Positions 19,031-57,415 of a DNA stretch of 64,000 bases are shown piece after piece. The DNA comes from Hygrophila difformis (taxonomy: Eukaryota; Streptophyta; Magnoliopsida; Lamiales; Acanthaceae): positions 4,569,431 through 4,633,430 of the forward strand of contig JAOANR010000005.1 of assembly GCA_030278955.1 (NCBI GenBank), given 5' to 3'. Each line of letters begins with the position of its first letter. The stretch's first letter is position 1. The notes below the pieces were generated by a model, which did not search any database, had not been told where the DNA came from, and was given only the letters and a program-made list of their open reading frames with translations. The translations under genes were made by a program, and so were the position numbers.

Positions 19031-19288
19031 CTCCATCCGTTTTAAAAAATTGTAACGGACTCACAGTGCACGCAGTCCAATGCACGTTTTAAACCATTAA
19101 TAACTCAAGTTCGTTACAAGTAAAAATTCTAAAAGTTCGATATTTAAAAACTACTCGACGAGATAATCTAACAAGATTCCACTTGGCTATATTTTAACTT
19201 GTATAATCATGATAAAACTTTAAATTAAAATGCGTGTATGAATAGTATCAAAATTATAAATGTTACAATTATAGAATAACAGAGGGAG
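19031..19288. mobile_element. Stowaway-type MITE
   Basis: CTCCATCCGTTTT at the left and AACAGAGGGAG at the right, with TA on each side (19029-19030, 19289-19290). Confidence 0.85.
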
Positions 19289-21430: not shown

Positions 21431-21561
21431 CTCCCCCTTGAATGCCTCTTCAATACAAAGAATATGTCTCGTTAAAATCTTACTTGAAAAAACCATGTGG
21501 GAAAAAAATCCAAGTCAGGAAAAAGAGTACATGATTCTTGTATTTTTACGTCTCCCCTTGA

Positions 21562-24500: not shown

Positions 24501-25130
24501 GAGCAAGCAACACATATATAATCATTATGTTGCAGCAATTTTTGTCCCTTTAATGAATGGTCATGACTATTTGTAATAATTCACCTCATCATTGTAGAGC
24601 CAGGATGGCCTAGACGATCATGCCATATCATATATTCATCTGTAAGACTATGGCTTCTAATAGACCTCTGGCCTATTTTGGGATGATATCCATTAGTGGG
24701 TCTCTGGCCATCAATAAACCTCTGGTTTATTTGGGGAATATTAGACCTGTGGTCTAAGTGATAATTTTCAATTGTATTTATCTTTAAAAATACAATCCAG
24801 AAGACAGATCTGGTAATTTTTCCAATACATATTTCTTACCATGAGTGGTATTTGTAATTAATAAATATTCGACATTCTCTAAAATCGATGTCTCGATATG
24901 ATAACCATTTTCTCGAATATCTTTAAAACTCAATAAATTTCTTCAAGACTTGCGAGATAGGAGTGCATTTTTCATAATTAATTTTGTTCCCTCTGGGAAA
25001 ATAATGTTGGTTGTGCCAATTCATTGTAATATATTTGCACTACCACATATTGTGTTTATGTTTATATCTCTCATTCTTAAATTGAAAAAATACCTTATGT
25101 CTTTTAGTATCGTGTGCTTGAAGCACTATC
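21562..25130 (-). pseudogene. Broken Copia pol: protease-integrase-RT-RNase H
   Basis: Remnant polyprotein in several frames. The integrase core and C-terminal part (24538-23534) retains SFLERIQGDICG, VLIDASTRW and the RRLGIYIGYESPS region. RT (22914-22261) includes the AVYVDDLNLIG catalytic segment and the TAYLYGNL region. RNase H (21969-21562) includes TATSSNHAESLAI and the SADNLADLFTKALPTATFEK tail. Stops and frameshifts separate these blocks, so no functional polyprotein can be made. The protease region is represented by the minus strand around 25130-24900. Closely related to the blocks at 30403-33982. Confidence 0.88.
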
Positions 25131-25844
25131 AATAAGACATATATTATCACTTTTATAACTCATTTTTCTGAGATTAAAACAAGATATAATTAATACTAAA
25201 ATAATATTGAATATAAGTGAGACAACACAATGCATACATAATAATATAGCAAAAAATTATAAAAAAAAATAAAATCAAAGCGTAATAAAAATAATATAAT
25301 AAAATGTAATGCAGTATTTTAATAATATTGTATCGCTGAAGAAATTTATATATCTTTCGATGATATATTTAGTATATCAATAATGGCCTTTTGAAATATT
25401 TATATTGTCGTACTTTAGCAAGGTTTATTTCAACCTTTATTTGCTTTATTGTATCAATAATTCTCGGTAACTAGTACCAAATCATTAGTCATACGATAAA
25501 TTATGGGACTATGTCCTCCTGCCATATTGATAGTATTTCTCTTCAATTACTTTGCCTTTTAGAGGCACAATTTCTGGCAATTATTTTGCCATTTAAGAAT
25601 CTGACTCTATCAGTACACATGACCAAACTAAAGACCACGAAATCTGTTGGTATAACCGAACTAAGATTTATGGACTTTGTTGGTATTCATGTCATTTTCA
25701 TTAATATCTTGTCACATATCTCAATTGTGACATTATTCTGAACATTACTGATTTATATCATTTACGGACTTATAGTCTTGCAGTCATTATGACGCCTCGC
25801 ATTTGGGATTTCAGCCAAAAATCTTTATTTTATCAAAGAGCTAC

Positions 25845-35350: not shown

Positions 35351-35633
35351 CTACCTCCGTATTCCAAGGTTTGCTACATTTGGTAATATGTTATTATTCA
35401 TGCGCAGACTTTCACTCAAAGTTTTAACATAGTAAAATTAAAATATAAACAAGTGAGATCTTGTTAGATTCGTCTCGTCGTGTAGTTTTTAAATATCAAG
35501 CTTTTAGAATTTTTATGTTTATCGAACTTGAGTTATTAATAATTTAAAATGTAAATTAGACTGCATGCTAGGTGGGTACGTAGCAAAAAATCCAGCATAA
35601 GGTTTCAAAAATTAGTTCTGTTGACAGAGGGAC
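35351..35633. mobile_element. Stowaway-type MITE, right end eroded
   Basis: The left end CTACCTCCGTATTCC follows TA (35349-35350). The interior (CAAGTGAGATCTTGTTAGATT) matches other copies. The right terminus is not a clean inverted match, so the end is approximate. Confidence 0.55.
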
Positions 35634-38822: not shown

Positions 38823-39816
38823 CACAACCTACCTCGCAGCAGAACGAATGTAGCAGTAGCAGCAGGCACGACCAATTCATTGCAAATCCATTTCCACGTG
38901 TGTTTAAACTCCATTCTGTCCAGCCATCTCAGCTTCCTCCTCTCCATGCAGCTCCAACTCCTGGTCTAGAGTAAGTCAGGTATCATACAGCGGACATCAC
39001 TGAACCTCCTTTGCCCATCCAATTCATAACCCTTGGATGGAGACTAACAAAAAAAAAAAAAAAAACTGCAAGCAGGGTGAGCATCATAATATTATTGATT
39101 AAAAATAAAGATGGTAAAATTATTTATTTCATTTTTAAAAGGTGCTTAACCTAAACGTAACATATTATTTCATCCTGGTTCTGTCACTATTTTTTCTTTT
39201 TCTTTTTTTGGTAGGGAAAATAAATAAACACCTCAATGAAAGTTCTGTCACTATTTTGTTAGTATGAGAAAAAACACAAACTGATAAAACTTTGAATTCT
39301 AAATCGCAAATTTTAAAAGAGTTAATAGTTAATTTAGGCCATAACAAGTAGTCATTTCCACTTTTGAGCCATAACAAGTTTGAGTTATGATTTTAGGCCA
39401 TAACAAACCACTTTTGTTCAATTTTGGGCCATTTAGACTTTTTAAAATAATAATTGAGCCCACCTACTTTCCTTTATTATATTTTGACCCCATCAGTTGA
39501 CTTATCAACTTTTGCCCTTTTACACTTTGACCCCAAACTTTAGATTTTTCATTAAATTTAATCCAATAACCGCCCATCATGCTTCCGATAATTAAATTAA
39601 GCACTAAACTTCATACCTTGGCTTTGACCGCCTTGCTGCCGGGTTTCCTAAGCTCCGGGATTTTACGGACTTCCTCCAACCACGCAGCCGCGACCGATGG
39701 TTCACCGATTCTTGGCTCCTTCAGCAACAAACAGCACAGTCCTATTTCGTTTCCTACCTTAGGACGTATCAAGATATGAATAAAGGGTTTTAATTATATT
39801 ATCGGGATATTTGGGA

Positions 39817-39893
39817 TATTTGGAAGCCTGGATTTTACTGAAGAAATATTAAAAATATTATTTAAACATAATTTCCCCTAATGGAGAAGACAG
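39817..39893 (+). repeat. Inverted copy of the viral leader in the left arm
   Basis: The plus strand here (AGCCTGGATTTTACTGAAGA ... CTAATGGAGAAGA) parallels the minus-strand leader just downstream of the primer site (46880-46809: AGCCTAGGTTTTATTGAAGA ... TTAATGGAGAAGA). The leader is therefore present at both ends in opposite orientation. Confidence 0.7.
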
Positions 39894-40045
39894 ACACTTA
39901 GTTTCTCATGGAGGATACAAGACTCTTGGGGGAATACCCCATACTTTTACAGACTTGAAAGGAAATATGCAGAAAGAGAAATATTACAAATACTTTGAAG
40001 AGTTGGGAGGAATTTTCGATGCCTTCCATCTGCTTCAAACTCCTT

Positions 40046-40122
40046 TATTTATAGGCGCCCGCGGACTTCAGCCCCGGATTCCAATCTTCCTCTAAATCCT
40101 TGTGACGTCACTGCGTTCGTCA
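40046..40122 (-). promoter_or_regulatory. Putative viral pregenomic RNA promoter: as-1-like element plus TATA box
   Basis: On the minus strand two TGACG motifs (40122-40118 and 40110-40106) are separated by exactly 7 bases, as in the as-1 element of the caulimovirus 35S promoter. A TATA box TATAAATA lies 52 bases downstream (40053-40046). The proximal motif is a full TGACGTCA palindrome. It lies 3' of the last viral ORF, where the pregenomic promoter of a circular pararetrovirus is expected. Confidence 0.65.
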
Positions 40123-40302
40123 CTTGGCCTTAATTTTCACCGGCTACATTATTGTCCTTTTTTGAATTATTGCGTTAGGTGGCTTTTGTCAACTTTCCAC
40201 CTTTTCTTGTCGGCCACTTTCTGCCAGCCACTCTGCCCTTCTTTGTCGGCTTTTAATTATGAGTGTTGCCGACACCTCTTTTTCTTTTACATCCAGCTAA
40301 TC

Positions 40303-41595
40303 TTACTTTGGCTTGTGAAAGTTTTTTGGACGTTTCTTCCCTTTGTCCTGTTCGGGTCCGGATTTTTTCTGGGTTACCCGGATCTTTGTGCCGAATAGGG
40401 GTTTCTCCTGCTCTGCACAATATGGGCATATGTGGTTATCCCATTGGCCAACATGCATCATATTGCATGCCTTTTTTCTGGTAGACTCGGTTGCTGGCAA
40501 CTTGTTTTCCCAGATGAGTAACCTCTTCTTCTCAAATGAGGTTTCCGCAAACTCTGTGCTTTTCCCTGTTAAAGAATTAACCAGGAACGATCCATTTAAA
40601 TTGTTTGAGAATATTTTAAACGGATATTTAACCTTTTCCATCTCGGTGAGACAGACCCAGAATCCCCATGCTCGTCGGGTGGAGATTTCATCTTCGCTGA
40701 TTGAAGATACCAATGGTGCCTTCTCATCCATAGACTTAACTCTGTTGAAGGCAATCATATCAGGTCTCTGTAATTTAATAAATTGAAAGACCGGATAAGA
40801 ACCTTTTCCGACTATCTCTGGTGCCGCTGAAATGAACTTAAGCTCCAGAATATCTCCTCTTTGCAGGTGCGGGTTGTTCTGCCATGATTCGTGCACCGCA
40901 CTACTTATCCATCCCGGAAGTTTTTCGATTTCCGGAAACCCTGGTGATGTAGTATGAACAGATGCTAATGCTCCAAAGTCATACCACTTCCGAACTTCTT
41001 CTGGTTTCGATCCTTCGAGCATCCATACCCTGTTGTATCTCCCGGATGTCTCGATTACTGTTTTGCTAGGGTTAATTCCCTTTTTGGAAACCAGTTGTTC
41101 CCATTTTCCTTGGTAGTCCAGCCAGGCAGTAGATAGGACCTTCTCATCTGAATTAACCTTAGAGGTGCCTGTCATTGGCCTAAGGTTAATTTCTTCCTCT
41201 TTCACCCCAGAGGCAGTGGGTTGACTTGAGCTTTCGGAAATGTGACTTTCCTCTTGCTCAACATTTTTGTCGGTATCCGACAATGGTTCCTTTGAAGCAG
41301 TGCTTGAATCTGCTTCTTCATATGTGACCACTTTAGCTTTTTGGGCACATTTCTCTTTGTTTACCAGGGAAGCTGACGCTTTCCTGATTGGCTCTAATAC
41401 TGTTTCCCATAGTGCTGTCATTGCTATATGGGAGGTTCGTATATTGTTGCGGACCATGTCCACATCGCTCTGTTGTATTTGGCCAGCTGCTCGTGCATTG
41501 ATCTCGAGCTGTCCAAAATGCTTTGATAGCTCCTCTAGGTTTTCTCTGAGGTGCCTGAATCTCGTAATGATGGAATCAGCTTCAAATGCTTCCAT
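40303..41595 (-). CDS. Pararetrovirus last ORF (position of transactivator/inclusion-body protein), 430 aa
   Basis: The last of the five viral frames. Its ATG at 41595 overlaps the end of the RT ORF by 14 bases. Its position matches the translation transactivator/inclusion-body (TAV) gene of several Caulimoviridae genera, which lets later cistrons of the polycistronic pregenomic RNA be translated; I assign the role by position only. Visible features are a helical N-terminal third, an acidic Ser/Glu-rich middle, a GKWEQLVSKKG block, a possible zinc-binding CNMMHVGQWDNHICPYC near the C terminus and a very basic tail ending KKRPKNFHKPK. The frame is unbroken. Confidence 0.7.
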   Translation of the reverse strand: MEAFEADSIITRFRHLRENLEELSKHFGQLEINARAAGQIQQSDVDMVRNNIRTSHIAMTALWETVLEPIRKASASLVNKEKCAQKAKVVTYEEADSSTASKEPLSDTDKNVEQEESHISESSSQPTASGVKEEEINLRPMTGTSKVNSDEKVLSTAWLDYQGKWEQLVSKKGINPSKTVIETSGRYNRVWMLEGSKPEEVRKWYDFGALASVHTTSPGFPEIEKLPGWISSAVHESWQNNPHLQRGDILELKFISAAPEIVGKGSYPVFQFIKLQRPDMIAFNRVKSMDEKAPLVSSISEDEISTRRAWGFWVCLTEMEKVKYPFKIFSNNLNGSFLVNSLTGKSTEFAETSFEKKRLLIWENKLPATESTRKKACNMMHVGQWDNHICPYCAEQEKPLFGTKIRVTQKKSGPEQDKGKKRPKNFHKPK

Positions 41596-43642
41596 CTCTC
41601 GTCAAGAAATCTGCAAGAACATTTTCATGAGATTTTATAACATCAATATCATAAGTATAATATTGACATTCAGCTTGCCATCTGATAATACGAGCTTTTT
41701 CAATTTTTGATTCAAGTTTATTTTTTAAAAAAGCCCTAACATTAGTATTATCAACTTTTAATACAAATTTCTTTGCAAGTAAGAATAAAGGCCATTTTTT
41801 AAATGTTTTCCATACTGCAAAGAATTCCTTCTCGTTAATATGCCAAAGTTTGGCTTGTTGTTCAGTGAACAACCCTCCTGTGTATCTGCAAGGTTCTTGA
41901 CCCGTAGTGGTTTTTCTCATGAGCACTCCTGCCCATCGAAAATCATTGGCGTCTGTGTAGACTACCAGCTCATCCTCATCCTGAGGTATCGCGAGTTTTG
42001 GCAAGCTATTACAGACTTGCTTTAGTTCACGAATTCTCTTGGTATGGATTTCTTCCCATTTCCATCTAGAGCTTTCAGTCTCTTTCAGGAGTGGTCTAAA
42101 ATCCTTTCTATATTTTGCAAGGTCTTTAATAAACATACCCGCAAAATTTACAACTCCTAAGAAACTCTGAAGTTGTTTCTTGTCTTTTAATATATCAGGA
42201 AAATTGCGGATTTTCTCCACAATGTGTTCCTGTAACTCTATTCTTGCTTCATCAATTTGAACTCCTAAGAATTCAATTTTGTTAGCAGCGATAGTGGCCT
42301 TTTTCTCAGAGAGAACTAGACCTTCCCTGTGACATGCATCAGAAAATATTTCAAGATGTTTAATATGCTCTTTAATATTTCGAGATGCAATCAGAATGTC
42401 ATCTATGTAGACGAACATAAACTCTAGATAATCCTTAAATAGATTATCCATCTTTCTTTGGAATATCTGAGGGGCATTAGAAAGCCCCATTGGCATAACA
42501 TTCCAAATATATTGCCCTTGTGGGGTGGAGAATGCTGTGAATTTCTTCGACTCATTCTCCATCTTAATCTGATAGAAACCAGATTTGCAATCAAATTTAG
42601 AAAACACTTTAGCACCTTTGATGCAATCAATTAAGTGTTCTCTACTCGGAATGTAATAACCATCAAACTGTATTATTTTGTTAATACCTTGATAGTTTAT
42701 TACCAACCTGGGTTTACCTCTCTTTATTTCACCGTGGTTTCTTACCAAGAATCCAGGGCTACTATAAGCTGAGACTCCAGGCTCGATGAGTTTAAGATCA
42801 ATATGCTCCTTGATAATTTGCTGCATATCTTTCTTATCCTGCATATTCATTAAGATGGGTTTGTATCGAACATACTCATATTTATATTGTTCTTTTACCT
42901 GTAGAGTGGCTTCGATCTTGTTTTTATCCCACCATGCCAGAGGATCCTCGTTAAAGTTTCTCTGGATAAGTCTTTTGACATTTTCGAGGGACAATTTAGT
43001 TTCCCCATCAATGTCTAGTGAAGTTATATTTAATGACTTCATTTCCTGCATTGCTTCTTTGAGGTTTATAATTTTCTCAATAGAAGCTTCATCAAATCCT
43101 TGCTGTCTAAAAGACAACAAAGCCTTACCAAACTTTCTTTTATCCTGCATTTTTGGATGGGTTAGTTTGGCATCATTATCACCACGTTTGCTGCGAAATA
43201 ATATAGGCATTAACCTGTTGAATGCCTTTTCCCTGCGCAACACCTGTATCTCATTTCCACAACTTGTGGTAAATATTAACAAATTTCTTTTGTTATCTTG
43301 AACATATTTTGTAAAGGATTGTATAAAATTGTTTCCTAACAAAATATCCGCTCCTGTGTCATGAAAGTAAATAGGAGGCGTTTTTACCTTATACCAAGGT
43401 GTACCAAATGCTCCTCCAATCATGATATTGGCTTGTCGAATACCCTTATTTAGTACTAAGATTTTTTGGGAAAAATCTCTTCCTGCAATAATGGGTAATG
43501 ATTCCATAGCTTCGCTAGGGAAAACTCCTGGTTTTGCCGTGCAAATACCTGATCCTGAATCAATATAAGCTGCGAAATATTCTGACTTATATTCTTCATA
43601 TATTATCCCTACTGAGATATAAATGGAGAATGGACTTGTCAT
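41582..43642 (-). CDS. Pararetrovirus protease-reverse transcriptase-RNase H polyprotein, 686 aa
   Basis: Replication polyprotein that converts pregenomic RNA into DNA. An aspartic protease site DSG is at residues 28-30 (context AAYIDSGSGI). The RT domain spans about 230-480, with LVINYQGINK, FDCKSGFYQI, MPMGLSNAPQIFQ and the catalytic YIDD (about residues 411-414). RNase H follows, with TDAND near 560, the EKEF Glu, the KVDNTN Asp and DFLTRD at the C terminus. All key catalytic residues that can be checked by eye are present and the frame has no stop or frameshift. The ATG overlaps the stop of the upstream ORF as ATGA (43642-43639). No integrase is present, as usual for Caulimoviridae. Confidence 0.93.
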   Translation of the reverse strand: MTSPFSIYISVGIIYEEYKSEYFAAYIDSGSGICTAKPGVFPSEAMESLPIIAGRDFSQKILVLNKGIRQANIMIGGAFGTPWYKVKTPPIYFHDTGADILLGNNFIQSFTKYVQDNKRNLLIFTTSCGNEIQVLRREKAFNRLMPILFRSKRGDNDAKLTHPKMQDKRKFGKALLSFRQQGFDEASIEKIINLKEAMQEMKSLNITSLDIDGETKLSLENVKRLIQRNFNEDPLAWWDKNKIEATLQVKEQYKYEYVRYKPILMNMQDKKDMQQIIKEHIDLKLIEPGVSAYSSPGFLVRNHGEIKRGKPRLVINYQGINKIIQFDGYYIPSREHLIDCIKGAKVFSKFDCKSGFYQIKMENESKKFTAFSTPQGQYIWNVMPMGLSNAPQIFQRKMDNLFKDYLEFMFVYIDDILIASRNIKEHIKHLEIFSDACHREGLVLSEKKATIAANKIEFLGVQIDEARIELQEHIVEKIRNFPDILKDKKQLQSFLGVVNFAGMFIKDLAKYRKDFRPLLKETESSRWKWEEIHTKRIRELKQVCNSLPKLAIPQDEDELVVYTDANDFRWAGVLMRKTTTGQEPCRYTGGLFTEQQAKLWHINEKEFFAVWKTFKKWPLFLLAKKFVLKVDNTNVRAFLKNKLESKIEKARIIRWQAECQYYTYDIDVIKSHENVLADFLTRDGSI

Positions 43643-44886
43643 TTAATTCTGATGGTGTGACCCTTCAGATTAAATTCTATACCATTATCCTTTCTTACCC
43701 ATGGTTTATGATTTTCGAGAAAACTTAATCCCAAAATCATAACCCCATTGTCTTTTCCGGCGGTGCCTAAGACTCTGATCTCGTGTCCTGCAATTTCAAT
43801 TGTTCCTTCATAGGTTCCAATTGATGGCTGCTGCAAGTAGTATAAGTCATCACATGGAAAACGGTTAATCTTTTCAGTGATGTCGAATATTACTCGTATT
43901 TCTTTCCATCCTTCAGGGCATTTTATCTTTATATTATCTACCCCAATGGATTGAGGAGTTAGATCTTTGATGAACTCCTTCCCTTTATATGCCATAATTC
44001 TGTCTTCCGAAAAAGACATACGGCTTGCGTACTCAATTCTAGCACTCGTTGATCTGTCTAGAATTGGATGATCTCTTATTTGTATGTCTACTCCTCCTAA
44101 CCTTGGAATTTGGGTAGGATTTGGAGTCATGACTTTAGCAAATTCCTTGAAAATTCTAGGAATTTCTATATATTCTTTCCTGAGAAATAAGTCAGAATGA
44201 TGACTATTGGAAAGTGCATAAGAGATTCTATAAGTTATAGAATATGGTTTGTTCCCTTCTTTCATCAGATCTTTTCTTTTAAAATCCTGATGAAGGGTTA
44301 GAACTCTACTAAAATCTTGGTCAGCTAAGTTATAGGAAATTCTGGGATGTATGTCAAACATTAATTTCCCAGCATATAAATTTCCCACCATAGTTCCAAG
44401 AAGACCATCTCTAAGGTTATTGATTCTTCTATCAGTGACTGATAGATGCAATTCAGAATCAATGCCTTCTTTGAAGGTTGCCTTAATTACTACTTCAATG
44501 GCTCCTATGTGGATCCATTTCATAGTAATGGCGATTTCCTCCTTCATTCTGCTTAATTCCTCAAGAATTTCTTCTTTAGGAATTAATTGCATATCCATAA
44601 CATTACAAGTAAGTTCCATAGGAATTGCAAACTCACCTGCACTTACCTTGTAGATGATGTTATGTCTTCTCTGGTTGAGTCCCATCTGGTTAAGAACTCG
44701 TCCAATCCCGCCAATTCTGAATCCGTCATATGGGCTGAGGTTGGAATCTTGTCGCATTATTCTTTCCATGGTTCGATTCGAGATCGTCATTCTTGAAAAG
44801 AATCCAGACAGGTTTTCAGTGGTCTGAATACTGTCTTCTTCAGTCAGACTCGGTTGAAGATCCATCTGAATATGAGTCCGAGTCAC
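43639..44886 (-). CDS. Pararetrovirus movement protein (30K superfamily) with C-terminal extension, 415 aa
   Basis: The central region (about residues 100-250) matches the caulimovirid cell-to-cell movement protein: WIHIGAIEVVIKATFKEG, then a SVTDRRINNL segment, LLGTMVGNLYAGKLMF and a SYALSNSHHSD block. Movement proteins form or line plasmodesmal tubules. The start overlaps the coat ORF by 47 bases and the stop overlaps the next start as ATGA. The last ~120 residues (including EIAGHEIRVLG and VMILGLSFLENHKPWV) look like the C-terminal half of a retropepsin fold but lack a D-S/T-G site. The frame is uninterrupted. In related genera coat and movement proteins can be fused; here they are separate ORFs. 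Confidence 0.85.
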   Translation of the reverse strand: MTRTHIQMDLQPSLTEEDSIQTTENLSGFFSRMTISNRTMERIMRQDSNLSPYDGFRIGGIGRVLNQMGLNQRRHNIIYKVSAGEFAIPMELTCNVMDMQLIPKEEILEELSRMKEEIAITMKWIHIGAIEVVIKATFKEGIDSELHLSVTDRRINNLRDGLLGTMVGNLYAGKLMFDIHPRISYNLADQDFSRVLTLHQDFKRKDLMKEGNKPYSITYRISYALSNSHHSDLFLRKEYIEIPRIFKEFAKVMTPNPTQIPRLGGVDIQIRDHPILDRSTSARIEYASRMSFSEDRIMAYKGKEFIKDLTPQSIGVDNIKIKCPEGWKEIRVIFDITEKINRFPCDDLYYLQQPSIGTYEGTIEIAGHEIRVLGTAGKDNGVMILGLSFLENHKPWVRKDNGIEFNLKGHTIRIK

Positions 44887-46288
44887 TTCTTAATTCTTCC
44901 TCGTAGATGCTTTCATCCGAGGGGATGTCCTCAAACTGATAGACTGGTACCAGCTTTCCATGGTAGACTGCTTCCACGATATCCTCCGTGGCTTCATACA
45001 TTCGTACCTCACGATTCTGAGGGCAATCGGGTGAGATATGACCTCTGGCTCCACACTTCCAACAGTTGCAGTCCTTGAAACTTTCGTTGGCTCGGGTATG
45101 GGCTCGTCTAAATGTTCTCTTGGACGTCGTTCTCCCCGTGCTCCTTGCTGCTGAGCTAGTTGAACCTTGGGATGAACTCTTCGCCGTTCCCGTTCTTTGT
45201 CCAGTTTTGTATGATCTGGCCTTGCTCTTGGACCACCATGCTCTTCTTCTTCGGAATGGAGGTCTTCTGAAACTCCTACTGTATGAGCCCCGACTCTTCT
45301 TCTTTTTCCTCTTTTCTCCTGATTCTCCTATAATTGTTGGAAAATCGTTATTTTCACAGCAAAGAGGAGTTCTTTTTATTTTACCTCTTAGTCTCTTGAT
45401 GTTCTTTTGGGCTGCTGCCTGTTGACACCATTCTCTGAGTTTATCCTTTAAGAAGGACATTCTTCGAGCTATTGAGTCCACTGTACCAGAAGGTACTGTG
45501 TACGATTGGATCAACATTTCTCTCCATGGGCTGCAGATCTTTGCAAAGAACATGGGACATGCTACTTCAGCTGTCATTTCGCTCCGAAAATAGTATTTAC
45601 GAAACCAGTAGATGTATTCGTCTACTGCGCAAATACTTCTTAACTCCATACCCAATAATGCTTGGGTATAGACCTTGATTTTTTCGGTTCTCTGTTCTTC
45701 AAAATACCCATCTCCTACAAAATGGGTTTTGAATAAGAGACCAAATCTTTCACAGATTGTGCTTTTGGATTCTCCCTCGAGTATTTGCTCTTTTAAAGCA
45801 GTTGTGGAGTTTTTCCAGCCCAGCTTTGCCGATCCTTCGAGACTCAGCTCTATTAATCTGACAAAGTTTTCTTTATCGAGTTCCAGGGTAGTTGCTGCAA
45901 TCTTCATTGAAGCTACCCATTCATCGATCAGGTCTTCGATGTTTCGGAAGTCGATAACGTCGAGGTTTAGTGTTATGCCATATGGATTTAATGGTTGTAA
46001 CATCGTCTTGGCCCACGGTGTGGATTCTGGTGCTCTACTTGGGTTCCGTCCTGGGTTTCGTCTTGCATTGAGATGCACCTCAGGATACCTGTTCATGTAG
46101 AAGTCTGTACTCTCTCTCATTGGAACATCAGGCGGTCCATCGTGGGTCACGTTGGATCCTGATCCTTCCGTATAACCCAATTGAAGGACTTCATTGGGTT
46201 TTACATTAACCAGATCCATAATCCCAAGTTGGGAAAATGATTCTGCTAATTCTTGTAGATCTGATAGATCTGCCCTGGAAACACTCAT
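44840..46288 (-). CDS. Pararetrovirus coat protein with zinc knuckle, 482 aa
   Basis: A capsid-type protein: a central helical region (about residues 100-290), then a strongly basic Arg/Lys/Ser-rich stretch (about 320-400). A retroviral zinc knuckle CWKCGARGHISPDC (CX2CX4HX4C, about residues 406-419) follows, with an acidic Ser/Asp/Glu-rich C terminus. This layout (helical core, basic nucleic-acid-binding tract, CCHC, acidic tail) is characteristic of Caulimoviridae coat proteins. The ATG overlaps the stop of the upstream small ORF (ATGA at 46288-46285). The frame is uninterrupted. Confidence 0.88.
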   Translation of the reverse strand: MSVSRADLSDLQELAESFSQLGIMDLVNVKPNEVLQLGYTEGSGSNVTHDGPPDVPMRESTDFYMNRYPEVHLNARRNPGRNPSRAPESTPWAKTMLQPLNPYGITLNLDVIDFRNIEDLIDEWVASMKIAATTLELDKENFVRLIELSLEGSAKLGWKNSTTALKEQILEGESKSTICERFGLLFKTHFVGDGYFEEQRTEKIKVYTQALLGMELRSICAVDEYIYWFRKYYFRSEMTAEVACPMFFAKICSPWREMLIQSYTVPSGTVDSIARRMSFLKDKLREWCQQAAAQKNIKRLRGKIKRTPLCCENNDFPTIIGESGEKRKKKKSRGSYSRSFRRPPFRRRRAWWSKSKARSYKTGQRTGTAKSSSQGSTSSAARSTGRTTSKRTFRRAHTRANESFKDCNCWKCGARGHISPDCPQNREVRMYEATEDIVEAVYHGKLVPVYQFEDIPSDESIYEEELRSDSDSYSDGSSTESD

Positions 46289-46707
46289 TCGACTGTTTTC
46301 AGGAGATCGATCATAAGCTCTTCTTGTGATTTCTGCTTTGGAACCATAGTTGCTTTACCCTTTTGATGTAAAGCTTGTACTGGTCCGAATGCATCTCTAA
46401 TATTGGCTTGGTTATTCTTGGAAGATCCAGGAATATCCTTCTGCCTTTTCTTGATATCCGAAATGTCAAATTTCAGATTTAAAATTTCTTTCTTTAGATC
46501 TTGAAATACTTTCAAGATCTCATCTGTTGTCTGATTCAAGTTATCTATTTTTCCAGGTATAATTAATACCCGGTTACCAAAATCTTGAATCGTCTTTTGG
46601 ATTTCTCTTAAGTCTTTTGATAACTTAGAGCTATCCGGATCAATTTCTTTCCAGTCCGTTCCTCTCATTTTTAGGAAAGAAACTGATTTTGATAATATCT
46701 TGTCCAT
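46285..46707 (-). CDS. Pararetrovirus first ORF, small coiled-coil protein, 140 aa
   Basis: First frame after the primer site, starting 169 bases downstream of it. Predicted to be largely helical with heptad-like spacing (KIDNLNQTTDEILKVFQDLK and following residues) and a Lys-rich C-terminal third. The position and character resemble small virion-associated or aphid-factor-like coiled-coil proteins of other caulimovirids, but sequence identity to a named protein is not recognised. It overlaps the coat ORF start by four bases. Confidence 0.65.
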   Translation of the reverse strand: MDKILSKSVSFLKMRGTDWKEIDPDSSKLSKDLREIQKTIQDFGNRVLIIPGKIDNLNQTTDEILKVFQDLKKEILNLKFDISDIKKRQKDIPGSSKNNQANIRDAFGPVQALHQKGKATMVPKQKSQEELMIDLLKTVE

Positions 46708-46875
46708 GGGACAAGTTCAAGAAATTCCTTTGGAATTTTCTATTTTTTATTTCCAAAATTTGGAAATAACTTGTGGGTTTCAAATTAATTGAATCCATTA
46801 AATAATTAAATCTTCTCCATTAAGAAATAAAATATTATAAATAATATAATTAATATGTTCTTCAATAAAACCTAG

Positions 46876-46887
46876 GCTCTGATACCA
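46876..46887 (-). promoter_or_regulatory. Pararetrovirus primer-binding site (tRNA-Met type)
   Basis: The minus strand reads TGGTATCAGAGC, complementary to the 3' end of plant initiator tRNA-Met and standard for Caulimoviridae. It lies 169 bases upstream of the first viral ORF. Confidence 0.92.
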
Positions 46888-47157
46888 ATTTTCAAGCGCA
46901 TTGGGTGTCATTTATATAATGAAAAATTAAGTATATTGAGAAAGGACTAAAGTAAATAAAGTCAAACTTCCTTGGGGTATGAATGAAATAAAGGAAAAGT
47001 TGTTGGATTCCTTCATTAATTTCAAATTGGTCCTATGGCCTAAATTTTACAAAACTGTGTTTGTTATGGCCTGTTTTCATAATTGCAACTTGTTATGGCC
47101 TAAAAGCGGAATAGCCTCCTTGTTATGGCCCTTTTTAACATTTAACCCATTTTAAAA

Positions 47158-47880
47158 ACATAGAGTATATATTTAGTTGGGAATTCATGATTCCTATATT
47201 CATTGGCGGATGCAGTCATGCAGACTTGCAGAGCATTAGGTTTGGGTCGAAAGTTTTTTACCAAATATTTTCACTTTAATTTATCTCTAGTTTAATAGTA
47301 CGAAAATCATAAATTAATTTTTATTTCTCCAAATCACCAACAATGTTACTTTTTTCGTCTAATTCTACTTTTTTTTTTTTTAACTAATCTTGCTAATACC
47401 ACTAGAATTAGAATTTATAGAGCTGGCATTATCATTACATTTTCATTTTTGTCCTAAACAATAAACATGTTAAAATATTTCAATTATAATTGACAAAATC
47501 AAAATATTAACAATTTAACATAACCTAGTAGACAAATAAATTTATTAAGAATGCAATTAATTACAACAACAAGATGTGTCTTAATTACAATTCTAGATAG
47601 CATGCCCAAATTTATTATTTTATTTTACTGAAAACGAACATCTTCTTTCCTCTTTCTTCCCCATAGTGTAAATTACATAAAAATATATTCTATCATAACT
47701 AAAATTCATAAAATTATATAAAAAATTAATGACAACTTTAAGTTTGGAAAAAATCTCTTGTACCATATGTAAAAATTGATACATCTATATAAAAAAAAAT
47801 TTGAGCTCGGGGTGGCCGCCACCGCAAGCCCCCCTACGTCCGCCGCAGCCCTATATATTGGTTTTGTTATATTGGGGTTT
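47158..47880. other. Spacer between the pararetrovirus element and the MULE
   Basis: AT-rich, no supported gene. A short GGGGTGGCCGCCACCGCAAG segment (47810-47829) is the only GC-rich island. Confidence 0.4.
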
Positions 47881-48529
47881 TTATTAAAAAAGGTCAGCAC
47901 CTCAAAATACTTCAAATACAAGACCAGCATACCTAATACATTATGTATTAACACCAATTTACGGAATACATACCAAATCAGGACCTGGCCATTATTTTTA
48001 AATGAATAATGAAATTAAGTTGTGAATAGACAAAACTACCCTTGCTTTTTGAATTTTTCTGCATAAATGATGTGAAATGTGGAGTGGAGAGAGAGTGAGA
48101 CAAAAAGAATTTTTGTTTTGGGGATTCAAAGCATTTGGCTCATTTTTTCTTCCTCGGACCCGTCAAAGAAGCCATTAATGAGGTGAGAAGCTCCAAAACT
48201 TGGCTTGGAAGCAAGAACGGGCAGAAGGGTGGGGACGGCGGCGGCGACCTGACGTCGTCGTTCTCTGGCGGAAGAGCGCAGCAAGCGGGTCGGCTTCGAT
48301 TTCCAGGCGCACAGGGTGGGAAGCTTGTTGAAGAAGCCTTTTTTAGGAGGCCGAAAGCGCGCACAGTGGGGGTCAAGCGGCGGGGAGTAGATTAGGGTTT
48401 GGTGGGTGGAAGGAGAAGGCTTTAAGAGGGGTTAGGGCTGTTATTTAGGGTTTGGTGGCTGGAAGAAGGTTAGGGTTTGGGGAGACAGTTATTTAGGGTT
48501 TTCTACAGGGTTTTTGGAAGTGGGTAGGG

Positions 48530-51175
48530 GTGAGGAAGATGGCAAGCAGGGAGCAAGGGGGTGGGCGAGATGTCATGTTATTTTGCCATTACAACGGACA
48601 AGCCCATCTCGTGCGGATAAGGGATGACGAAGCCCTTGCGGATGTGTACGGAAAGGTGACGGAGAAGTGGGGTAATGTATGTGCAACAACACATACGCTC
48701 CACTACGATGAACCCGACGGGGGCTACACAATGGAGATAAAGAATGATGACGATGTGAGACGGATGTCGAACTTGAATCGAGCAAAGGGACTGGCATTTG
48801 GGAAGATGACAGTGATGGAACGGGAAGCAAGAAACACGATCGTGTAAGTCTTTTAGGAAATTGCATTGAGTTCCTTACCGTTTAATATTTGGTTGTATGC
48901 GAGCGTATGAATGATATTATTTGCGTTAATGATACCTGGTTGCGATCATAGCTATATCTTTTAATAGTATCTGGCAATCTGCGAAATAGGACCATGATTC
49001 TTGAAACAGGGAAGTGGTTAACAACATCGGTGTTTTCTGTACACAACACTAGTATAGTATACGCATAAGAATAATGTTATACTTGCAAATCACTGGTACG
49101 GCTACTGAATTTAACTAGTATTTAAGTTGGAAGTAACTTGTACTTCAGGGAACACACTGTAGTACAGGATGACATGGACGACGAAGATACCGAGGACGAG
49201 GAGGATCAGAGGGTTATATGGGCCAATGCAATAAAGGGAGTAGGACAAAGGTTTAGGAATCAGGATCATTTCCGGAAGGTGGTGGCAAATCATTGTATTT
49301 CTCTTCGGCGTGGATATGAATTCGTTCACAACAACAAAAGCAGAATATACGTAAAATGCACGACGGAAGGTTGCGGTTGGCGCATATATGCATCATTACA
49401 CAAGTCTGACAACTCATTTGCGATCCGCACATGCACGTTGACTCACCGTTGCGGCGTTAATAATCTGCAATCGAGGACTCACCCAAATGCGAATGCGACA
49501 TGGGTAGCGGCTTTCATAAAAGATAAAGTGCGGCGGAACCCGAATTACAATCCGAACATGGCTATCGCGGACATTCACGCCGCATTCAAAGTGGACATTA
49601 GCTATCGCACAGCGTGGAACGCACGGGAGATGGCGATTAAGGAGTTACATGGAGACGATAAAGATTCCTTTGACAAGCTCCGGCTATTTTGCAGCCGCTT
49701 GACAGCATCGAACCCCGGGAGCGTGGCTGACTTGGAGGTGTTTCCTGAATCAGGAAAGTTCCGAAGGGTTTTCATTTCAATAGCAGGTTGCATTGAAGGG
49801 TTCAAGAGAGGATGCCGTACGCTTATTGAGCTCGATGTGACCCATATAAAAAATAAGTGGAAAGGCACAATACTTGCCGCTGTTGGTAAGGATGCAAATG
49901 CTGGGTTCATAACGCTGGCATTCGCAGGTACGTAAATTTCATGATATTGAAGTTTTTGAAGAGAAGGGGTGTCGTTTGGGATTTGTGCTCTCCTCACCGT
50001 GGTGTTTTTTTTTTTTACAGTTGTTGACGGAGAGACGGATGAGAACTGGGAGTGGTTTTGTCTCCGGCTGAGGTCTATACTAGATGGTGATACAGAAGAG
50101 AACTGGTCCGAATACACTTTTTACACTGACCGGCACTCGGGTCTCATGAAAGCTATCCCAACCATTTTTAATTGGAGTCACCATGGCGTATGCCTACGAC
50201 ACCTCGTTGATAACTTTAAAAAGGATGTGAGTTTTACTAGTACTATATCATATAACTATAATCTAGAATGATACATGGTTTTATATAAAATTGGTACTAT
50301 CCTTTTCAGTGGCTGGTATATATGAACTACGAATACAGGTGCTTCGTAAGTACCCATACAAGAATAAGGATCACTGGACAGGGAGGCTGGAGGCTGTTGC
50401 GTACGCTCCGACATATAACGAAATGTTCAAGCATCTCAATACCATCCTTGAAGCAATGCCCTCAGCTGGTACGTTCCTTGAAAATTCAGAACCCGAAAAT
50501 TGGGCGAATGCGCTGTTCACGGGCAAGAAATGGGGTGTCATGAACACAAACCTCATCGAGAGTTGAAATAGTTGGATTGTGAAAGCAAGGGGCTACGGTC
50601 CGTATGCAATGCTCGATGAAATTCGAAGACAGGTTATGAAGATGATGAACGATAAAAGAGAGGAAGGTGCTAGAATGGAAGGAAGATTGGCTACGGTGCC
50701 GGAGAAGATATTGAACGGTAATTACCTGGCATCCGGCGAACTTGAGCTGCAGCGCGCAACGGGCTCCTTGTTTGAAGTCCGGGAGAGGGCCACCCTACAC
50801 GCCGTTGATGTGGAAAAGTGGACATGCACGTGTGGCTACTGGCAATTATTCAGGTTGCCCTGTAAGTACAGGTGTGCTGCGATCGAGAAACTGCAGTGCA
50901 ATATTTATGACTACTGCGATGCTTACTACACCACTGAGTATTTCAGGGCGACATACGAAGCAGTGATATATCCTTTGATGATGGGTGGTGATAATGTCGT
51001 AGATGAGAATGACGAAGACTTTATACTCCCACCGGACGTTCGGGTGCAGCCTGGCCGGAGAAAGAAAAAGCGAATCCCATCGCAGGTGCAATCGGGCAAG
51101 AACACCTGCCACATGTGCGGAAAATCAGGTCACAACAAACGCACCTGCAAGGAATCACACAGATATGTCGGGTGA
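48530..51175 (+). pseudogene. MULE (mudrA-type) transposase, 4 exons, one in-frame stop
   Basis: Exons 48530-48843, 49149-49927, 50021-50226 and 50339-51175 join in phase to 712 codons including the final stop (an alternative start MASREQ is at 48539). Domains in order: a PB1-like N-terminal region (about residues 10-105), an acidic linker, a MuDR-type zinc DNA-binding domain (CTTEGCGW ... CTLTHRC, about 180-220), and the MULE DDE domain. The DDE domain includes LIELDVTHIK, AFAVVDGETDENW, FYTDRHSGLMKAI and GVCLRHLVDNF. A SWIM-type zinc finger (CTCGYW ... LPCKYRCAAI) and a CCHC knuckle (CHMCGKSGHNKRTC) follow. Defects: a TGA at 50564-50566 in the IES-x-NSWI segment, where a Trp (TGG) would be usual, and Tyr in place of the SWIM His ligand. 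Otherwise remarkably preserved. It converges with the minus-strand gene. Confidence 0.85.
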
Positions 51176-52509
51176 TTCAGCTGCGTCGTTTCATTATGCC
51201 AAGACTGGTGTTATTTTTTATGTCAACTGATGTTTTGTTGTTGATGCATATTTTTGTTGACGAACAAGTATTGTTTTGGGTTTTGCATGGTTTCAGTACT
51301 TGAATCTATCCTGTATGAGGTGGTTTCGATATATGATACCATTTTGAATGCAATGAAATGATCGGTTTCAGATGACGTGGTTCACGAACAAGAGTCGCGC
51401 AAATCATATTTACAATTTACAGGACAGAACAAAAAAAATACAAGTCAATTGGTTAAGAAAACACTAATGTAATGGAGAAATAATACCAACAATTGTGTGA
51501 AAATACGGATGTTGTTCAACACATCAAGAAGTCAAAATTAATCAAGTCATTGTTCAACATGCATGGTCATAAGTGATCACCCCAAAATGGTCACAGGAAA
51601 AAAATGGCATGGTCACTCATGAACAAACAAATAAAGTAATAATGTTTATTGCATTAATGTTTTGAATGAATGGGAACTTATGAATATGAATGGAAGGGTC
51701 ACACTTATAACATCTTACTCACTCACACATGATATCTTACATTATTTGATGCCACTAAATCGCTATTATTATTGAAGACGAATTAAACTACAACGTTGGA
51801 CCACGTAAAGATGCAATTGGGCGCTGTTTCGGCGTTTTATAAGATCAACTATGTGGATCAGCTAGTATACCAATAATATTAGATTCGGATACCATTATGT
51901 AGAAAAACAAATACCATTGTCGTTCTTGATCTATATCATTGACTTTCTGGATTCATACCGTTATAATGTTTATTGTTGTTAAGGTTGTTGTAGAAGCTTA
52001 TTGTTGCGAGTTTACTGAGAACTGCTTCATTTTACAGATTTCCAACCCTTGTAGAACACCGCCCCCAACCATTAGCCATATCGAAACTAATGAACATCAC
52101 TTAGCCATTTTCAACTCTCTTACTTTCTCAATTTATGCAATATACCAACACTTATATGAACCATTATAGGAACATCACTTTGTTGAACATAGTGAATTGT
52201 GTTCCAAGATTACTTAGTTTAGTCCAATACGTTACTTTGGTTTCAAGATTATACACATCGTTTAGCTCAACATCAAACATAATGGTACAAGATTATCCAA
52301 GTCATTAGGGGCGAATGCGATTGTTCAACATAAAATACCATTCATCACCTAGGTCAATACCAACAAAGGAACAACATCACCACAATTGTCCAGCTACAAC
52401 CATGGAACATTCATCAAAATGCAAAATACCAACAACCATTCAAAAGTTGAAACAGTACTATCAATCCATCAACCCATAAAACTGTATTAATACAGGATAA
52501 ATAATTAAA
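51176..52509. other. Interior spacer of the MULE between the two convergent genes
   Basis: AT-rich, no ORF of interest. It should contain the 3' UTRs and terminators of both convergent MULE genes. Confidence 0.5.
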
Positions 52510-55500
52510 CTAGTGATCATAATCGATCATCCAATTCAGGTCATGACAGGAAGAGGGATCATCGTCATTAGGCTTGGAAGCATCAGTGGTGGGCGCGGGT
52601 GCAGGAACTGCTGGGGCATCCGGCGTGGGTGCGGGAACTGCTGGGGCATCCGGCGTGGGGGCGGGAATAGCTGGGGCAGCCAGAGTGGGTGCGGGAACTG
52701 CTGGAGTATCCGGCGCGGGTGCAGGAATAGCTGGGGCATCCGGCGTGGGTGCGGGGACTGCTGGAGCATCCGGCACGGGTGCGGGAATAGCTAGGGCATC
52801 CGGCGTGGGTGCGGGAACTGCTGGAGCATCCGGCGTGGGTGCGGGAACTGCTGGAGCATCCGACGTGGGTGCGGGAACTTCTTTGACGACTTTTCGCTTG
52901 GGACGGGGCCATGCAGGGAATCTAGACGGTACGGTCAAGGCTAGGACGGCCGGAGCATATGCAGCTAGGGGAACAGGAGATAGAGCACTCTCACGATCTG
53001 CCCTAGCATGATCAATGGGATCCGCAACCTTCGTCCTAGGCGGCACCTGGACTGTTGTCTCCTCCTCCATGGGCTCCGTCCGAGCCTGCTCCATCCCAGC
53101 ATGCTCCCCCATCGTCATAGCCTGCTCCACAGCAGTCGGCTCCTCCTCCATCGTCTGTGCGTGCTCCTCATTAGTGGCATCCGTCCCCTGCTCTATGTTA
53201 ATGGGCTCCTCCTCCGTCGTATGAGTCTCCTCCATGCCAGTCGGCTCCTCAACATTGGGAAGTGTCGTGCGCCCCTCATCGATGTCAGTGGGCTCGACCT
53301 CCAGTCCCCGATCTTGCTCCTCAACCATGGGATCCGTCGTCCGCCCCTCATCGATGCCCGTCGGCTCCGTAGTACGCCCCTCATCGGTCTGAACAATGGT
53401 CTGGGCCGATTTAGCATCATTCAGGAGGCGAAGCGCGGCCCTAGCCCAGTACGTGGGTATATCATTGGCTTGGCGAAATCGATCGCTGCACAACAGAGAA
53501 ATGTATGCCGAAACTAGGTCGTTGCATACCGCTTCCTCAAACAGAAGCAGAAGAATACTTGATGGTAGGACGGCGAAGATGCCCTCGCTCCATATGTGAC
53601 CACTGCCAGAACAACAATCCATGAACAAAATAATACCAGTCAACATACTAAACAATACCATTCAGGTAGTTAAAAAATGCAAGTTCTACACAGAAAGTAA
53701 ATACCTCGTGCCAGGTGCATCGATGAACTGTTCCAGCATTATTCTTTCTTCCTCCGAGAGACTATTCACACCGGCGTATCCCCTTCGGTTCGAATACCGA
53801 TAGCACAATTCCTCCTCCAAGTCCCTTCGCGAAGCATAATTTTTGGGAAGAGGAGGAGGGGCGTCAAGTTCCAACTTTCTGTTAACAAGCTTTTTCTTAC
53901 TGCGAGTCTCCGGTGAATAAAGTGGGGGATCCGCTTTACGCTTTCCCCGTTGTGTAGCTGTGGACAATGGATAAAGTGTAAGCGGATCAACATGTGATGA
54001 TTTAGATTTAGAGAGAATTAACATGGCCTCGATTGCCACTGCCACCTCGTCATGAAATGGCTCATAAATTTTCATCGTCTCGCCAATATTTCTCCCATCA
54101 ACCTTACCTTTTTTCAATTTCGCCATTGATTCATCATTCCCATATGCCACTGCTTGGGCAACCTTCTCGCTCACGTAGTTTTCGCTGTCGCCGGTGCTCT
54201 CAGAAGAATCAGCCACATACTCCGAATGGTCACTGCTAGCTCCCTTCGTGGCGGGCTTCTTCTGCACGACCACCTTCACCTTCTTATGCACGGCCAAATT
54301 ACTATCAGCCTCGGACACAGAATCCTCACCCTCCTCGTCACTGCTGCTTGTCTCCTCACTCGCAGCCTCTTCCTCATTCTTCGCGTGTACCAGAAAATAC
54401 AATCATTCGATCAATGCATACCAGTGTAACATGCATTCAATACTAGTGCAGTGTCATAATCATTATTACTAACATATAATACTACGTATTTACCTGAACC
54501 GTTCGCTTTTCAAAGCCCACCTTGTTTTCCGTTTTCTCCGCGTTCACCTCCCCCCGCTGAACATCCTCCTCATCCTTCTCATCTTCATTCTTCTTTGGCC
54601 TCCTCTTCTTTTTCTTGATCCTGAGGGGAATCTCATCCTCGACCTCGGCGTCATCATCTTCTCAACAGCATATGTTTGGGGGACGGTCGTCACAGGGACC
54701 AGAAATTTCCTCTCCCTTAAGCTTATTTTCAGAGGCCGACACTGATGTTTCCTAAGCTGTGTGAGATCCGCACGACACTCGTTCAGTTTCCCGTATGATT
54801 CCTTACACCGCACGAACCTGGGTATCACTGGTTCAAGGAGTGGTTCAGCCATGTGAGGGAATCGCTCGTAGAACCAGCCCTACAAAATAACACCATCGTT
54901 CAGCGTCACATGAGGAGAGGCGTAATATGAAGTTGATATTGGTGTTTTGTATGCATGACACTGGTATTACAAGATAAATATTGAAAACTTACCACCACGC
55001 CGAGGGTGCAGCCATCGATATAAGTCTTGTTTTCCTCATTGATCCGCCGCATCGAGTCTACGACGAATTCGTACACCGCAAGGCCCCAGGCGTACTCACT
55101 AAGCATCTTCAACCTGTCCACGTGGTGGACCAGAAAATCAGGAAGGGTGTAGGCCAACACCGGGAAGCGGATGCAGCTGAATACCGCCAATACGAACGCT
55201 CTTGCAAAATCAAGGCAGTTCTCGGTGCCAGCCAAGCTACCCATGAGATCCAGTATCTCTTGTCTTTTTAGTGCCCCGCTCGCATTGAAATACTTTTGCC
55301 TGAACGGCGATTTTGGCACACACCTCGTGTGCACGTGCATGCCCTCGTGCTGTAGCCCCAGCACCACAAAATATTCCCACGCTTTGAACTTCACTGTAAA
55401 TCCTTCTCCGAAAACAAAGGCTCCCAAGTCCGCATTGAAGCACTCCACCAACGACTGCAGCCTCGCCTTGCTGCTGTAGATCGTATCGATCTTCGCAAAG

Positions 55501-55709
55501 TGGTAGAATGGAGTGGACTTGATCGCCTTCCATTGTTCGTCAGTTATTCTATCTCGTATGCTGCTCATTGCATCTTGTAGCACACTCATGGTACAACGTG
55601 AAATAATGGTTGCCTGTCCGCTTGTCTTTGCATTGTCCTCCTTCTTTTGCATCTCTTCACTTTCATTCTTCCTCGATCTCTTCCCTTCCGAACGACGTCT
55701 CGGGGCCAT
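52510..55709 (-). CDS. MULE second gene: DUF1985/Ulp1-associated-like protein with Pro-Ala repeat tail, likely frameshifted
   Basis: Likely exons on the minus strand: 55709-54993, 54879-54494, about 54382-53705 and 53602-52510, with GT-AG borders at the intron edges I could check. The first part (MAPRRR basic start, then an AFVFGEGFTVKFKAWEYFVV...LGLQHEG block and a DGCTLGVVGWFYERFP block) resembles the DUF1985-type regions found in plant MULEs that captured Ulp1 protease sequence. The middle is acidic/basic low-complexity. The last exon has GHIWSEGIFAVLPSS and VSAYISLLCSDR, reminiscent of the start of an Ulp1-like domain. It then diverges into TDEGRTT repeats and a Pro-Ala decapeptide array, with no His-Asp-Cys protease core visible. 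A one-base shift near 54661 breaks the second exon, so the gene may be dead. Function unknown. Confidence 0.55.
52580..52880 (-). repeat. 30-bp tandem repeat encoding Pro-Ala-rich decapeptides
   Basis: About ten copies of a 30-bp unit (plus strand GGGTGCGGGAACTGCTGG-type, then GGCATCCGGCGT), in frame with the minus-strand gene as (V/I)PAPTPDAPA. Confidence 0.9.
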
Positions 55710-57168
55710 TTCTGAATACCTGCCAACACATTTCAATTATACCAACGTCATGCGCAAATCATACAGGTGTAATAGTTTACCAAGTTCCTAAAATTGATTT
55801 CACTGCTATGAAAATTACAGCAAATTCAAAACTCCCAACATCATCCGCACCAAACAAGAAATAATTCACCCTATAACCAATCCTTCCAATCTCGCTTCAT
55901 TCGACATCAAATAGCACACATCAAACATAAACATGGGCTGCTAGTATATTTTAAAAACGGTACTGGTATGAAGAAAAAATGGGCACTGGTACCACGCAAC
56001 AAACATAAAACAGGGCTTCCTGGCGCTTCCACTAAATTGAAAATAACGAATCACAAATCATAAATCCCAACAAGCATACCGAATGCATATCACCGGTGTA
56101 TCGTTAAAATGGCACTTGTATGAAATTCAAAATAAAAAACTTCAGAAACCTAAAATCCATTGCAACGACAAGAAACAATTTGAACCAATAACCTAGCTTC
56201 TCAATCTCACTTCAAACCACATAAAAAACCACATAATAAACAAGAAATATGGGCTGTTAGAAGTAGCCCCAAATCGCTACACACAAATTGCAAACCCTAA
56301 ACCCTAAATCTTCATCTTTCAACATCAAACAAAATAAAACAAATCAAATAAACTAAAACCCTAACTCCACAAACTGAATGCTATACCTGTTCTCGTCTGT
56401 TTCGCGAGCGGGAGTGGCCCAAATGAAGACCCGGTGTCGTCGGAATTTCGCGAAAGGGAGTGGTCTGATTCGTCAGTTCCGCACGCTCAAATAATGGGGA
56501 ATTGGAGTGTCGTTTGGGGTGAACGGTGTAACTCAAGAGAAGGAAGTGGGGGCTATCTTCAGTTACAAAGAAAATCGGGAGGGCTTCAGTTATTGGAGAT
56601 GAGACGTGGGGGAGGGGAATGGAGAGAAGGAAGGGGGGAAACGGAGAGGGTGAACGGCGTCGGCGAGTGGGGGTGCATTGATTGCACTGCGGTGGCAGTC
56701 CTCGATAACCGGTGATGACATGACCACCATGTGATTTTTTTTTTTGCCCTCCATTCCATACCTTGTAGTTATTTTTTAATAGGGACTGTTTTGTCATTTC
56801 AGGATTTGTATATTGAAAACTAATGTTAAATACAATTGGTGGCCTTACATTGGGAGTATTTTGGTATGCTGATCTTGTATTTGTAGTATTTTCTGGACTT
56901 GGCCTTTTCTTTACATTTCCGTACAATTAATGATCAAATATCGATAAATGCATAATTGAAGTACATACTATACAGTATACAACGTTATGAAATCATTGAC
57001 TGACTACGCGATAGGCATCAAATTTTTTTGCAGCCCAAAATAATAAAAAAAAAAAGGCATATTCGAATATATTCTTTGAAGGGAAAAAAAAATGACCACG
57101 CAATGCATGCATTGTGTTGAAAAATAATAATCTGGCCAGGATTGTCGGGATATCAATCTAATTTTATA

Positions 57169-57415
57169 CTTCATCACTTCCTTATTTATTGACACAGATA
57201 AAGTTTTGACACTGTTCATTGACTAACTTTAATTTGACATTATAATACAATTATATAAAATAAAATATAGTCAAATAGAATTTTATTGGATTCGTGTAAT
57301 CGTATAGATTTAGAATATCAAATTTTCATTATTTTTACTTGTATGCAATTTGAGTTATTAATAATTAAAAATATATATTAGATTATGTGAAATGTGGGTC
57401 CGTGACAATTAAAAA
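57169..57415. mobile_element. Degenerate Stowaway-type MITE
   Basis: The interior (GATAAAGTTTTGACACTGTT then CAAATAGAATTTTATTGGAT) is like other Stowaway copies. Both termini are eroded; borders are approximate. Confidence 0.45.

Follow-up and report, generated by a model that had tools for sequence, protein, structure and literature searches.

A caulimovirid genome between the arms of a Mutator-like fold-back in Hygrophila difformis

Within a 64,000-nucleotide stretch of the Hygrophila difformis genome (assembly GCA_030278955.1, contig JAOANR010000005.1, positions 4,569,431 to 4,633,430 of the forward strand; hereafter the window, whose numbering is used throughout), a caulimovirid lies on the minus strand between the two arms of a transposon-like unit at 39319-47148. 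The virus has five uninterrupted open reading frames (ORFs), a predicted tRNA-Met primer site and a candidate TATA box, and the unit is enclosed by flush, perfect 9-bp repeats, ATTTTAAAA, at both outer edges. The reading that we prefer, with a probability of roughly 0.55, is that a Mutator-type fold-back was already in place and that break repair joined viral DNA into it at its inner tip. The limits of the unit are the following:

39310-39318, no strand: left copy of the 9-bp target-site duplication, ATTTTAAAA, recognized from the sequence
39319-39557, plus strand: left fold-back arm, with three GGCCATAACAA-type repeats, aligning to the right arm up to 39557
46914-47148, minus strand: right fold-back arm, delimited by alignment to the left arm; its end, 47109-47148, recurs at window positions 1-40
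47149-47157, no strand: right copy of the 9-bp target-site duplication, ATTTTAAAA, recognized from the sequence

The two arms are inverted with respect to each other and identical at 175 of 225 aligned positions (78%), with 25 further gap columns; BLAST of arm against arm gives 73% over 219 columns. Their local alignment score is 190, whereas none of 500 dinucleotide shuffles exceeds 74, which bears out the outer inverted repeats described in the initial annotation and corresponds to the long terminal inverted repeats of Mutator-like elements. Each arm contains three repeats of the GGCCATAACAA-type motif with a spacing of 29-30 bp (30 and 29 bp in the left arm), and the arms are nearly equal in length, about 239 and 235 bp, once the segment 39556-39890 is assigned to the viral leader (see below). 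A search of IMG/VR by arm pattern returned no relatives.

Mutator-like elements make target-site duplications of 8-11 bp, mostly 9. The duplication found here, also noted from the outset, is perfect: 9 of 9 positions are identical between 39310-39318 and 47149-47157, flush with the arms. Taken alone, such a repeat is modest evidence for transposition. Two 9-mers drawn at random from the window match with a probability of 1.6e-5, but this figure rises to 0.0037 for 9-mers made only of A and T, and the window contains 10 occurrences of ATTTTAAAA, the two flanking copies included; the repeat is therefore weak by itself. More weight comes from its position directly at the ends of the arms and from the flush perfect repeats that also border the fold-backs at 6159-7380 and 7701-8881, which were examined individually and not as part of a systematic survey of the window. 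The A/T-rich sequence and the match frequencies just given are what could make the arms unrelated neighbours, their terminal and 9-bp repeats being coincidental or derived from two separate insertions. However, the arms, which beat every shuffle, are inverted and directly abut the repeat, and an exact copy of the right end stands at window 1-40 beside a different flank, so that we hold such a coincidence to be very improbable. Since ATTTTAAAA is nearly palindromic, the duplication was also considered as an extension of the terminal inverted repeats; this was rejected because the flanks, read inward, are offset by one base and because the flank of the copy at window 1-40 differs.

The viral features, all on the minus strand, are given in the order in which they are read:

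46876-46887, minus strand: predicted primer binding site for initiator tRNA-Met, TGGTATCAGAGC, a sequence motif
46708-46890, minus strand: downstream viral leader, from the primer site to ORF1, which pairs with 39815-40030
46285-46707, minus strand: ORF1, 140 residues, weakly coiled-coil-like, all Pfam matches below cut-off
44840-46288, minus strand: ORF2, 482 residues, coat protein with a CCHC zinc knuckle (PF22909, PF00098)
43639-44886, minus strand: ORF3, 415 residues, movement protein (Pfam PF01107, E 4.9e-32)
41582-43642, minus strand: ORF4, 686 residues, aspartic protease, reverse transcriptase and RNase H (PF02160, PF00078, PF17917, PF17919)
40303-41595, minus strand: ORF5, 430 residues, Pfam matches only below cut-off, homologues found
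40046-40054, minus strand: candidate TATA box of the viral promoter, CTATAAATA, beyond ORF5, with a function proposed from its sequence
39563-40020, minus strand: putative upstream viral leader, delimited by homology to 7032-6719 and by pairing, its start near 40020 being placed from the TATA box

The five ORFs (140, 482, 415, 686 and 430 residues, the third with a GTG start) contain neither stop nor frameshift, and their Pfam domains confirm that this is a Caulimoviridae-type genome, as had been stated in the initial annotation. The movement protein, coat, protease, reverse transcriptase and RNase H domains of the family are all present, the coat domain just below the threshold: in ORF2, PF22909 (caulimovirus coat domain) reaches 25.6 bits for a cut-off of 27, and the zinc knuckle PF00098 barely passes, with 21 bits for 20.8. 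In ORF4, the A3 protease, reverse transcriptase and RNase H are all above cut-off, and a YIDD-type motif is found at residue 412. ORF5 occupies what we take to be the position of a transactivator, and the motif TGGTATCAGAGC, at 46887-46876 ahead of the first ORF, is presumably that of the initiator tRNA-Met primer site. There is no integrase domain among the Pfam matches, no transposase was found among the five ORFs, and Rfam gave no match over 39000-47500 at E values up to 0.1. The reverse transcriptase has 862 homologues at E <=0.001, and all those that carry a name among the 120 listed, 115 in number, are from Sesamum species. ORF5 has 135, and the named ones among the 120 listed are from Sesamum, Perilla, Phtheirospermum and Phlomoides. 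No named virus appears among the 120 listed reverse transcriptase matches or the listed ORF5 matches, and IMG/VR yielded no confirmed relative, whether by reverse transcriptase protein (0 of 9 stretches) or by reverse transcriptase alignment (0 of 31). DNA and protein searches of the window detected no viral stretch other than those in 39319-47148 and in the fold-back at 6159-7380.

With the left junction placed as below, the virus measures about 7.33 kb (39563-46890), which is about one genome length and, if that junction is right, lies within the 7.1-9.8 kb given for Caulimoviridae in PMC7660458, a source that also describes Met-tRNA priming in this family. In the part of that source available, no genus is credited with five ORFs, while the "three or more" of badnaviruses would admit five. 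Endogenous caulimovirids such as florendoviruses and endogenous solendoviruses share with the present virus the movement protein, coat, protease, reverse transcriptase and RNase H domains and, according to PMC10377300, PMC7660458 and PMC5902531, the Met-tRNA primer site, a leader able to form a long stem, the lack of an integrase domain, here among the Pfam matches, and transposon-rich surroundings. The virus at 39319-47148 differs in being about one genome long, with all its ORFs open, between repeat-flanked fold-back arms.

There is no stop in the 6459 coding bases (overlaps counted twice), where 4.1% of substitutions would create one. This sets a 95% bound on neutral divergence of about 1.1% from stops alone, or of 0.33% on the assumption of 0.1 disabling indel per substitution, corresponding to 1.6 or 0.5 million years at an assumed rate of 7e-9 per site per year. 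Judged by this bound the virus is recent, and the earlier proposal that intact ORFs imply a recent event holds for the virus; it is to the virus only that the bound applies, the perfect 9-bp repeat carrying almost no age information.

The assignment of the segment inside the left arm decides where the virus ends. The stretch 39825-39890 matches, in inverted orientation, the leader segment that separates the primer site from ORF1 (79% over 68 columns by BLAST), with a score of 92 against 64 or less in 500 shuffles. As RNA, 39815-40030 forms a duplex with 46708-46895 at -96.6 (shuffle mean -47.8, minimum -71.6, 0 of 200 as good). The pairing is carried mainly by 39800-39871 (-43.0, shuffle mean -19.7, 0 of 500 as good), 39872-40030 alone pairing weakly (-52.5, shuffle mean -43.0, 11 of 300 as good). 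Neither the outer block 39556-39799 (166 of 200 shuffles as good) nor the left fold-back arm, used as a control (116 of 200), pairs with the downstream leader. Given this pairing of its inner part, 39556-40020 is best read as the upstream viral leader; the outer portion, 39556-39799, is called viral by its contiguity with the paired part, both here and in the fold-back at 6159-7380. The large leader stem-loop of Caulimoviridae would thus be present, although with the primer site within the stem. This position is a point against a textbook leader, since, according to PMC5902531, the shunt configuration, including the large leader stem-loop, is kept in all genera, with exceptions detailed, and the primer site is downstream of the stem-loop in most of them. 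Alternatively, the inner inverted repeat could belong to the transposon and not to the virus, but this would place the primer site inside the transposon. The block 39556-39870 was also considered as a captured host exon and rejected: its 60-residue open stretch has no Pfam match up to E 1 and no homologue (only candidates of similar length), and its inner end pairs with the viral leader. This open stretch, 39614-39793, runs for 60 codons in the viral sense, ends at a splice-donor-like GTATG and is partly kept in 6159-7380.

The virus/arm junctions had been placed near 39890 and 46890 in the initial annotation. The right one agrees with our limits (46890-46913), whereas the left one was wrong and now lies at about 39556-39563, some 330 bp further out. 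Between arms and virus, about 23 bp on the right (46891-46913) and 5 bp on the left (39558-39562) are assigned to neither. The left viral end stops at ATTGG (39567-39563), which resembles the first bases of the primer site, and the right one begins with ATTGGTATCAGAGC; from these two ends, the virus is opened at the Met-tRNA primer site. The minus-strand discontinuity of caulimovirid DNA is located at this very site, according to the genome description in PMC7660458. That the virus and the fold-back, both of which come from repeated families, were united by a mis-assembly of repeats is hardly credible: the window contains no N base, and arms and 9-bp repeat agree across the 7.3-kb virus, which is not what a random join would give.

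The reading to which we give a probability of about 0.55 runs as follows. A non-autonomous Mutator-like fold-back, whose anatomy is seen in the arms, would have inserted at the locus by a transposition that made the 9-bp duplication. Its long inverted arms could then fold out into a hairpin or cruciform, structures at which breaks are known to occur, and caulimovirid DNA about one genome long, opened at the Met-tRNA primer site, would have been joined by host end-joining into a break at the inner tip. The outcome would be arm, virus and arm within an older target duplication, with no need for the virus to transpose. Break repair is supported by the flush 9-bp repeat, the long and near-equal arms and the location of both viral ends at the primer site. 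It is favoured because it requires no new step, accounts for viral ends at the discontinuity and fits a published hypothesis: of the two hypotheses that PMC10377300 describes as widely held for integration, one is the repair of breaks at palindromes able to form hairpins, the other the use of LTR-retrotransposon machinery. For florendovirus components in grapevine, PMC4241990 describes flanks with very little redundancy and rejects transduplication.

Several observations weigh against break repair at a resident fold-back. No empty copy of the same fold-back subfamily was seen in the window, and the pre-insertion state is assumed. Both viral stretches of the window sit at the inner ends of repeat-flanked fold-back arms, as would also be expected from capture by a transposon, and in 6159-7380 the viral piece is present in both arms, unlike the product of one simple insertion. 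Published work describes an integration bias toward (TA)n tracts, and a search of the junctions for tracts of at least 4 units found none. The use of a transposon-derived integrase is among the suggestions mentioned in PMC10377300.

The fold-backs that bear on the alternative of capture, with the other copy of the family, are:

1-40, minus strand: right terminus of another copy of the same family, beside a flank of its own, TAGTTTAAA; truncated at the window edge
6159-7380, no strand: second fold-back, with a 10-bp flush flanking repeat, TATTTTTAAA; leader-like sequence makes up the centre and the inner ~190 bp of each arm
7701-8881, no strand: fold-back with related terminal arms and a 9-bp flush flanking repeat, TTATTTTTA

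The right end of the unit, 47109-47148, is identical at 40 of 40 positions to window 1-40, whose flank differs, which makes recent activity of the family probable. The termini of 7701-8881 match those of 39319-47148 with scores of 88 and 103, for shuffle maxima of 64 and 68 (0 of 500 each), and this fold-back has no viral match at the DNA or protein level.

In 6159-7380, the arms are alike in their outer part (323 of 348 positions) and in their leader-like part (168 of 191). The leader piece, on the inner ends of both arms, is about 73% like the viral leader at 39556-39870, the counterpart of which is at 7032-6719. By alignment score alone the match (71) is inside the shuffle range (maximum 74 of 500), and a duplex test was chosen after this had been seen: the duplex of the centre, 6719-6790, with the viral leader reaches -36.5 (shuffle mean -18.6, 0 of 500 as good), while the opposite strand of the centre does no better than shuffles (-20.0, 329 of 500 as good). 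A 46-bp match to the downstream leader at 6719-6765 is also obtained by BLAST (E 1e-4). The outer arms compared with those of 39319-47148 score 72, 64 and 64, and 8, 13 and 52 of 500 shuffles, respectively, do as well. Over 40, 60, 80 and 120 bp, the arm side of the left junction shows a borderline similarity to the right arm of 6159-7380 (9, 16, 1 and 13 of 1000 shuffles) and a weaker one to its left arm (34, 51, 23 and 77 of 1000), which is not counted as homology. Because the outer arms resemble each other weakly at best, the viral piece in 6159-7380 probably reflects a separate joining of viral DNA and a fold-back.

The main alternative to break repair is that a fold-back captured the virus, as Pack-MULEs take host DNA and perhaps from nicked episomal viral DNA, and that the composite moved at least once, the 9-bp duplication marking the transposition of virus and arms together. 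The virus wholly between the arms, the leader on both arms of 6159-7380 within a 10-bp flanking repeat, its pairing matched by none of the 500 shuffles, and the probably recent mobility of the family all speak for it. Yet a single copy of the composite is seen in the window, the outer arms of 6159-7380 have no clear homology to those of 39319-47148, which makes a separate origin of its viral piece probable, the window edge truncates the copy at 1-40, and a cargo of 7.3 kb would be large for a Pack-MULE; we consider capture possible but doubtful. The initial annotation was right in placing a caulimovirid within a unit that has the marks of a Mutator-like fold-back, but both of its options (a virus landing in a fold-back that then moved, or a fold-back family spreading a captured virus) had the fold-back moving with the virus inside. 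This is not established, because the outer duplication attests only to a past insertion of the fold-back at this site; a virus joined into a resident element that has stayed in place ever since explains 39319-47148 equally well.

Pack-MULEs and other non-autonomous Mutator-like elements have in common with the present unit the 9-bp duplication, in keeping with the usual length for such elements. Long terminal inverted repeats with foreign DNA between them are a further common trait in the relevant part of PMC6431247, the content being pieces of host genes there and a whole virus here, known as a single locus. Teratorn, the fish piggyBac-herpesvirus fusion treated in the same source, likewise has a virus genome enclosed in DNA-transposon ends; it is described there as having its own active transposase, whereas none was found among the five ORFs here and a single copy is seen. 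Among the titles and abstract openings listed by full-text searches of mostly open-access literature, some of the lists being cut short, none described a caulimovirid inside a Mutator-like element. The unit poses a sharp contrast between fold-back tips as integration sites and fold-backs as carriers, and the latter, if true, would be a plant counterpart of Teratorn. It is unlikely that Mutator-type fold-backs repeatedly capture caulimovirid DNA cut at the primer site and spread it as cargo; if true, this would provide a route to high endogenous caulimovirid copy number without a viral integrase or repeated infection. How caulimovirids integrate is regarded as speculative in PMC10377300, which also raises the question of their accumulation in genomes, and a cluster of 951 identical reverse transcriptase sequences in pepper is reported in PMC9794742.

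A non-autonomous Mutator-like element would be moved in trans by a MuDR-type transposase. A MuDR-type gene is found nearby, at 49138-51175, between other termini, which have no match to the arms of 39319-47148. These termini are inverted (47888-47939 and 56908-56856, 81% over 53 columns) and delimit a MuDR-type element of about 9 kb, 47888-56908, with no clear target duplication by eye. MuDR DNA-binding and SWIM domains are found in 49138-49935 and 50579-51175, with an in-frame TGA (50564-50566) ahead of the second ORF. Pfam yields nothing at E 0.001 for the ORFs at 52510-56926, and tandem repeats with 30-bp steps (52592-52879) lie inside a minus-strand ORF of this element.

Elsewhere in the window, a 4.4-kb inverted repeat, 21427-25844 and 34123-29734 (90.6% alike), has a copia-type reverse transcriptase in 21427-25844 and retroviral SH3-like domains in both parts, which are probably two oppositely oriented retrotransposon copies. 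A family of dispersed short repeats, probably another miniature element, occurs in both orientations at 1044-1233, 14190-14455, 19040-19263, 35376-35586, 57204-57410 and 58991-59252, with matches of about 120-270 bp that are 72-88% alike.

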